DNA from: Rhodospirillaceae bacterium
GTDB taxonomy: Bacteria; Pseudomonadota; Alphaproteobacteria; SMXQ01
Reading direction: 5' to 3'
Assembly (NCBI GenBank): GCA_947474495.1
Contig: CANJIM010000007.1
Coordinates: 1-57,120 of the forward strand
Length of the DNA: 57,120 nt
The position numbers and the translations under genes were made by a program. Below the pieces are notes generated by a model, which had not been told where the DNA came from, did not search any database, and worked only from the letters and a program-made list of their open reading frames with translations. Below are positions 55,176-57,120 of the stretch, piece after piece. The stretch's first letter is position 1; each line of letters starts with the position of its first letter.

Positions 55176-56216
55176 ATGACCACCAAACAGCTGTTTCGCG
55201 CCACGATTCTGTCCGCCGCCAGTCTCGCCATTGTCGGGGCCTTCGCCGGCGCGGCCCAGGCGCAGCAAAGCGTCGCCGATTTCTACAAGGGCAAGACGGT
55301 GTCGATTATCGTCAGCACCGGCTCGGGTGGCGGCTATGACGTGATGGCCCGCGCATTGGCGCGTCACTTGCCGAAGTTCGTGCCGGGCAATCCCAGCATG
55401 GTGGTGCAGAACATGCCGGGCGGCGGCCACATGCTGGCAGCCAACCATGTCTATACGATCGCGCCGAAGGACGGCACGGTGATCGCCGCGCTCAATCAGA
55501 ACGTGACGTCGAATCAACTGCTGACGCCGCAAGCCGCGCGCTACGACGCCAACAAATATATCTGGCTCGGCCGCTTCGCCGAGAAGGGCAATCCGGCGCT
55601 GGCCATCTGGCATGAGGCGCCGGTCAAGACACTGGCCGACGCGCGCAAGACCGAGATCATCATCGGCGCGACGGGCGAAGGCTCCAGCTCTTACCGCTAC
55701 ACGGCGGCGATGAACCATGTGCTCGGCACCAAGTTCAAGATCATCAAGGGCTACAAGACGGTGCCGGAAGTGCTGCTCGCCATCGATCGCGGCGAAGTGC
55801 AGGGCCGCACCGGCGCGTTGTCGGCTTATGAAGAAGGTAAGCCGGAATGGCTGAAGGAGAAGAAGCTCAACTTCGTCATCCAGATCGGCTTCACGCGCGA
55901 CCCGGACCTGAAAGACGTGCCGCTGTGGACCGAGTTGGCCGAGTCGGTAGAGGATAAGCAGATTCTCAACCTGATCGCCTCGCCGACCAACCTCGGCCGC
56001 CCCGTGAACACCACGCCGGGCGTGCCGGCGGATCGCGTCGCCGCGCTGCGCGAGGCCCTCTTGAAGATGGTGAAGGACCCGACCTTCATCGCCGAAGCCG
56101 AGAAGCAGGACATCGAGACCGATTTCCGCGGCTGGGAAGAAACCGCGCAGATCGTCGCCGCCACCCTGGCCGCCTCGCCGGAGAGCGTGCAGAAGGCCAT
56201 CGAGGCGATGAAATAA
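55176..56216 (+). CDS. Tripartite tricarboxylate transporter (Bug-type) substrate-binding protein
   Basis: A signal peptide ending AGAAQAQ is followed by the Bug/TctC fold: DFYKGKTVSIIVSTGSGGGYDVMARALARHL, NPSMVVQNMPGGGHMLAANHVY and VPADRVAALREALLKMVKDP, in separate blocks. Such periplasmic proteins bind carboxylates or aromatic acids. No TctA/TctB membrane subunits lie next to it, so the transport partner is elsewhere or it acts as a sensor component. Confidence 0.9.
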   Translation: MTTKQLFRATILSAASLAIVGAFAGAAQAQQSVADFYKGKTVSIIVSTGSGGGYDVMARALARHLPKFVPGNPSMVVQNMPGGGHMLAANHVYTIAPKDGTVIAALNQNVTSNQLLTPQAARYDANKYIWLGRFAEKGNPALAIWHEAPVKTLADARKTEIIIGATGEGSSSYRYTAAMNHVLGTKFKIIKGYKTVPEVLLAIDRGEVQGRTGALSAYEEGKPEWLKEKKLNFVIQIGFTRDPDLKDVPLWTELAESVEDKQILNLIASPTNLGRPVNTTPGVPADRVAALREALLKMVKDPTFIAEAEKQDIETDFRGWEETAQIVAATLAASPESVQKAIEAMK

Positions 56217-56486: not shown

Positions 56487-56562
56487 GTCCCCATCGTCTA
56501 GAGGCCTAGGACACCACCCTTTCACGGTGGATACAGGGGTTCGAATCCCCTTGGGGACGCCA
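56487..56562 (+). tRNA. tRNA-Glu (anticodon TTC)
   Basis: Acceptor GTCCCCA pairs with TGGGGAC, the anticodon stem CCACC/GGTGG has loop CTTTCAC with anticodon TTC, and the T arm is GGGGTTCGAATCCCC. CCA is encoded at 56560-56562. The sequence is intact, so any element inserted here restored the 3' end. Confidence 0.97.
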
Positions 56563-56582
56563 TTAAATCGACATAACTAATT

Positions 56583-56615
56583 GATAAACATAGATAATAT
56601 TAATCTACGTTTATC
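56583..56615. repeat. AT-rich 13-bp inverted repeat beside tRNA-Glu
   Basis: GATAAACATAGAT and ATCTACGTTTATC differ from a perfect inverted repeat at one position and are separated by AATATTA. The stretch starts 20 bases after the tRNA and is AT-rich in a GC-rich genome. It is not followed by a T-run. It could be an element-end or recombinase site, or a tRNA terminator. Confidence 0.45.
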
Positions 56616-56708
56616 CATCCCCCACAATAGTCCCCACACTGAGCAGGCGTCAGAGTGACGCGGCGTGAGCTGGGGTGGGACTGCTTGGCAGCAGTTTAGA
56701 GATTATTT

Positions 56709-56816
56709 TCAGCTTTCGCAGCCGACCGCCCCAAAGCCCAAAGCGGCAAAAGCCGGTGGCCATAGCGCCCAAGCCAGCACCTTCAGCTTCTCCCGGTAAA
56801 CCGGAGAGGCGCTCAA
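56709..56816 (-). CDS. Possible small membrane protein downstream of terS
   Basis: A 35-residue frame from TTG at 56816, overlapping the terS stop, codes for a short polar N-terminus and one hydrophobic segment (LAWALWPPAFAALGFGAVG). No ATG start and only a poor ribosome site are seen. It may be a phage small gene or chance. Confidence 0.25.
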   Translation of the reverse strand: MSASPVYREKLKVLAWALWPPAFAALGFGAVGCES

Positions 56817-57120
56817 TCCTGCATCGCGATCCCCACCAACGCCACCCTCAGCGCATCGCGCTGATCTGGCGTGAGCGATGCTGCGTCGATGGTTGTCGTC
56901 TCGATCTGAACCGGGCCACCGGCGGGGCCTGTAAGCTCGCGCCCTTGGCGATCTTCCCAGCCGCTGGCTGCACGGCTGCGGTTGCGTAGCCCGAGCGACA
57001 CGATCTGGGCGCTGCCGGCCTCGCCATTGGCCATTGCGAGTGCGCGCTCCTCCCACCACAGCAAGGCATGGTGGCGGCCCTCCTGAATGGCCTGCTCGAA
57101 CTCTGGGTGCTTGTGCTGCC
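56813..57120 (-). CDS. Phage terminase small subunit-like protein (partial)
   Basis: The frame enters from the right edge. The visible 100 or so C-terminal residues include HPEFEQAIQEGRHHALLWWEE, SAQIVSLGLRNRSRAASGWEDRQ and ELTGPAGGPVQIET in pieces, a pattern seen in phage DNA-packaging small subunits (xxLKNR ... TGxxGGPV). The gene points towards tRNA-Glu, and the large terminase expected downstream is absent, so this is likely the edge of a prophage remnant or island. The N-terminal DNA-binding part is outside the window. Confidence 0.6.
   Translation of the reverse strand, partial: QHKHPEFEQAIQEGRHHALLWWEERALAMANGEAGSAQIVSLGLRNRSRAASGWEDRQGRELTGPAGGPVQIETTTIDAASLTPDQRDALRVALVGIAMQD

Follow-up and report, generated by a model that had tools for sequence, protein, structure and literature searches.

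A family of tRNA-integrated elements with a shared small-terminase end in a Rhodospirillaceae genome

Phage-inducible chromosomal islands (PICIs) have an att site of their own and some of them carry the small terminase gene terS, according to the sections of PMC6092414 used here; in the gene maps given there, int occupies the left end and terS is grouped with the encapsidation genes. Because not every PICI carries terS (same sections of PMC6092414), a terS without the large terminase gene terL at an element end is neither necessary nor sufficient for assigning an element to the PICIs. Many PICIs target tRNA genes, and the att sites usually have 7 bp or more in common, within which the crossover takes place (PMC10111431, in the part considered). 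For Sinorhizobium meliloti, the portion of PMC11476347 drawn on here describes prophages and islands that insert at tRNA 3′ ends, leave the tRNA intact, occupy several tRNA genes per genome and have direct repeats of 12–98 bp. The element end studied here belongs to this known kind, the tRNA-targeting integrative elements: its junction lies exactly at a tRNA 3′ end and the corresponding site is uninterrupted in another genome of the same genus (G001). It resembles PICIs in combining an att-like end with terS and in targeting a tRNA gene, and the S. meliloti elements in the intact tRNA and the use of several tRNA genes within one genome. It differs from the former in that the elements are known from their terS-side ends, the one right end that was read (on contig C33) lacking an integrase, and from the latter in a repeat of 7 bp, the sole pair seen. 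In SaPIs, int marks one end of the element and terS lies in the direction of the opposite end, which would fit a terS-side junction. A PICI would be expected to measure approximately 12–15 kb, to encode an integrase, a regulator and a replication module, to lack phage structural and lytic genes, and to be induced and packaged by a helper phage.

The window, i.e., the whole stretch of 57,120 nt that was analyzed, is the entire contig C7 of a 2.99-Mb genome bin (G000) with 127 contigs and an estimated contamination of 1.8%. Its last 558 bases follow a tRNA-Glu(ttc) that ARAGORN identified at 56487–56562 on the plus strand, intact as stated in the initial annotation. Directly behind it, the GC content falls to 0.438 over 153 bases (56563–56715), compared to 0.64 in the window as a whole and 0.667 over the remaining part (56716–57120). 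The change in base composition noticed earlier is therefore real, but it is limited to approximately 150 bases. We consider this AT-rich stretch the attachment arm specific to this copy, since similarity to related contigs begins only behind it, from 56716 (C61) and from 56753 (C2). Within it, the 13-bp inverted repeat pointed out before could be reproduced at 56583–56615 (arms 56583–56595 and 56603–56615, 7-base spacer), with 12 of the 13 pairs matching; a length of 13 was never reached when the 153 bases were shuffled 300 times at constant mononucleotide composition. The repeat is a possible protein-binding site or terminator, and it was also flagged as terminator-like on the minus strand. 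A doubled CCCCACA with a period of 12 follows at 56620–56638 and provides candidate integrase arm-type sites. The probable crossover block, ACGCCAT at 56557–56563 on the plus strand, was assigned by analogy with the block that is identical between attL and attR in a related copy at tRNA-Glu(ctc). Just upstream of the tRNA lies a gene (55176–56216) that we take to encode a periplasmic tricarboxylate-receptor-like protein; the gene belongs to a large paralogous set, with approximately 40 matches in G000 to the stretch holding it.

The terS reading frame runs leftward toward the tRNA (56813–57120, minus strand; stop codon at 56813–56815) and is still open at the contig end. The C-terminal 101 residues are present; in comparison with phage small terminases, approximately 42 residues at the N-terminus are cut off by the contig end. 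We do not propose a hairpin terminator behind terS, the fold having a z-score of −1.69 and 12 of 200 shuffles being equally good. In a profile search the product matched the small-terminase family phrog_309 (E 8.3e-7), and four phage records matched at E < 0.01; Pfam and NCBIfam gave no match, and a PDB sequence search returned a single, irrelevant one (E 1.5). It could be aligned at 26–33% identity with the small terminases of Rhizobium phage RHph_X3_2, Salicola phage CGphi29 and phage isolate cta1H496, which also fall into phrog_309, and the P-E-F and W-W-E columns are invariant in all five aligned rows. In these three phage records, which contain the nearest TerS proteins, terL directly follows terS, whereas in the window terS adjoins the att site, with the tRNA as the next gene and no terL in the 250 bases that separate the tRNA from the terS stop codon. 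The initial annotation of a terminase-small-subunit-like gene facing the tRNA with no large terminase behind it was thus correct. In the 61 relatives, 11 genomes of the order and 385 of the class searched (overlapping sets), close relatives of this terS were found only in its own genome. A viral and a genome contig collection yielded none by protein or by a 30-base exact pattern, an integrase search in the viral contigs gave one match of 27%, and keyword searches of the literature returned no account of elements like these, a weak sign that they are undescribed.

The lone terS beside an att site without terL makes a satellite somewhat likelier than a complete prophage, and a helper-dependent satellite is our tentative, slightly preferred reading. 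Complete or partial prophages, in which the missing interior would hold a full structural module with terS at its att-proximal end, appear possible but doubtful. The TerS belongs to a tailed-phage family, rhizobia often carry prophages integrated at tRNA genes (PMC11476347, in the portion drawn on), and structural genes may lie in the element interior, which is absent from the assembly bin. Yet terS is followed by att and not by terL, at variance with all three phage records, and no other phage-structural gene was seen at the element ends that were read.

We searched the window's own genome at the DNA level with 56487–57120 as the query. The terS-bearing end recurs at the start of C2 behind tRNA-Arg(ccg) (97% over 368 bases) and at the end of C61 behind tRNA-Glu(ctc) (94% over 282 bases). 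Contigs C7, C2 and C61 all stop inside the shared sequence, as expected where an assembler meets a repeat. Counted from the window's tRNA, the shared part starts after 154 bases in C61 and after 191 bases in C2; the copies diverge only nearest the tRNA, where each has its own attachment-like stretch. The window end is thus one of a tRNA-integrated family with three or more related members in G000, which have a common terS end and different attachment modules; the family and its tRNA targets are observed directly. A decayed trace of the same end (79% identity over approximately 140 bases) lies behind tRNA-Ser(tga) on C93, where ordinary genes come next. Such a trace is what would be expected if the copies were decayed islands, i.e., terS fragments left by old integrations and spread by recombination between tRNA loci. 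We regard this as an unlikely origin of the other three copies, which differ in their attachment stretches, interrupt the assembly in the manner of long repeats and have all kept an open terS frame in which the changes are mostly synonymous (4 synonymous and 2 nonsynonymous over 102 codons between C7 and C2; 5 and 2 over 61 codons both between C7 and C61 and between C2 and C61).

Comparison with G001 revealed two empty sites directly. The tRNA-Glu(ttc) of the window and the stretch upstream of it match G001 at 84%, and the match ends with the final base of the tRNA; in G001, this tRNA leads into ordinary genes, the first presumably a small lipoprotein-like ORF, and the element is absent. Likewise, tRNA-Glu(ctc) in G001 runs directly into an ordinary gene, which we assume to be ABC-transporter-like, and this gene sits on C33 in the window's genome. 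According to pairwise alignment, C61 agrees with G001 until tRNA-Glu(ctc) ends and diverges from there, and C33 tracks G001 from approximately ACGCCA onward, preceded by foreign sequence. The attL (C61) and attR (C33:246–252) of this copy have 7 bp in common, ACGCCAT, of which six are the 3′-terminal bases of the tRNA and the seventh is the base behind them. The repeat of the tRNA end that had been proposed as attR is therefore seen directly in this sibling, but the right junction of the window copy and its integrase were not found in the assembly. The genes that follow tRNA-Glu(ttc) in G001 are on C121 in G000, with IS-like ends on both sides, and their tRNA-proximal part is not in the bin. 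The ends of C93, C99, C109, C116 and C121 have up to 149 identical bases in common, inverted on both sides in C121, and represent a multi-copy insertion sequence. For the tRNA-Arg(ccg) copy, the flank on C2 resembles G001 (85.9%) up to the first base behind the tRNA; the flank of this tRNA in G001 is rearranged relative to the window's genome, and no right junction could be located, the genes concerned being on C104 in an arrangement absent from G001.

Taken with the family at three tRNA genes, these sites make it very probable that 56563–57120 is the junction of an element integrated at the tRNA 3′ end. Of the boundary of a prophage remnant or island postulated in the initial annotation, the boundary is supported by the family, the empty sites and the sibling attL/attR pair, and the designation as a remnant is one possibility among others. 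An assembly artefact, a repeat end wrongly joined to a tRNA, might be suspected in a bin this fragmented and with some estimated contamination, but is highly improbable given separate contigs with different junctions, each exactly at a tRNA 3′ end, and one junction whose matching right junction lies on another contig (C61/C33).

We propose that the element would have entered the 3′ end of tRNA-Glu(ttc) by site-specific recombination, leaving the tRNA intact, with a tyrosine integrase as the most likely recombinase. Its siblings combine the same terS end with different attachment stretches and presumably different integrases, which may be why each of them occupies a different tRNA gene. If the elements are helper-dependent satellites, as tentatively suggested above, TerS would recognize the element's own DNA and steer packaging into the heads of a helper phage; excision and a satellite life-style would follow from the same model. 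Satellite, prophage and remnant are all possible readings, of which we slightly favor the satellite. Rather speculatively, the elements might represent an undescribed lineage of terS-carrying satellites with three or more copies in a single genome, in which the attachment/integrase module is swapped and siblings colonize different tRNA genes without displacing each other. Co-resident siblings with one packaging-gene end and different tRNA addresses are a natural setting for studying changes of the integration site.

A tandem motif in attP has been described for some PICIs (PMC10111431, in the part considered). Here, doubled motifs with a period of 11–12 are located behind the tRNA in all five junctions of the terS or C24 type (C7, C2, C61, C93 and C24; see below for C24), in neither of the two integrase-type junctions (C65 and C110) at the length used, and in 107 of 900 background draws, by a criterion chosen after the junctions had been inspected. 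By the same count, doubled motifs occur behind 11 of 36 tRNAs in G000 versus 1 of 21 in G001, after tRNAs with fewer than 140 bases downstream had been dropped (two and one, respectively). Contig ends within 1.1 kb were found on the 3′ side of 10/38 tRNAs in G000 versus 4/38 on the 5′ side, and in G001 on the 3′ side of 5/22 versus 6/22, the sample comprising 38 of the 43 tRNA matches of G000 and 22 tRNAs of G001 picked to match. The excess of G000 contig ends facing tRNA 3′ ends is suggestive only. Contigs of a fragmented assembly that break off shortly after a tRNA gene can point to multi-copy elements that have been collapsed. Behind tRNA-Asn on C15 and tRNA-Met on C8, both in G000, doubled motifs with a period of 11 directly follow the tRNA and are succeeded by ordinary genes; these are possible scars of old integrations.

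Contig C24 ends 348 bases past tRNA-Ser(gct), inside a gene end that recurs at the start of C33 and at the close of C12 (C24:39641–40081, C33:1–149 and C12:51322–51409); the same gene end bounds the tRNA-Glu(ctc) element on the right. This gene end, which we had at first weakly assumed to be that of an outer-membrane barrel, had no match in Pfam and in PHROGs only one at E 0.0077 to a family of unknown function; the right end on C33 thus consists of a gene end without family match and contains no integrase. The bin contains five integrase-family hits, three of them on C65, C110 and C117, and none is linked to a terS end; the remaining two are presumably XerC/XerD, judging from their gene context. 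At tRNA-Ala(cgc) and tRNA-Thr(ggt), respectively, C65 (1–1017) and C110 (3973–4999) each end within the gene of a tyrosine integrase located behind the tRNA. The two stretches are 75% alike over 886 bases and break off at the same place, and they may represent a second collapsed tRNA-integrated family, apart from the terS elements. The tRNA-Ala(cgc) that is syntenic with G001 is a second copy on C38, and no empty counterpart could be assigned to C65. Two further contigs end close to a tRNA: C86 (10306–10416) stops 21 bases past tRNA-Ser(gga), these bases resembling the stretch behind tRNA-Ser(tga) on C93, and C115 (4366–4441) stops 0 bases past tRNA-Phe. The third integrase contig, C117, is 4.3 kb long, open at both ends and carries in addition what we take to be a polymerase-like ORF; perhaps it is another mobile element.
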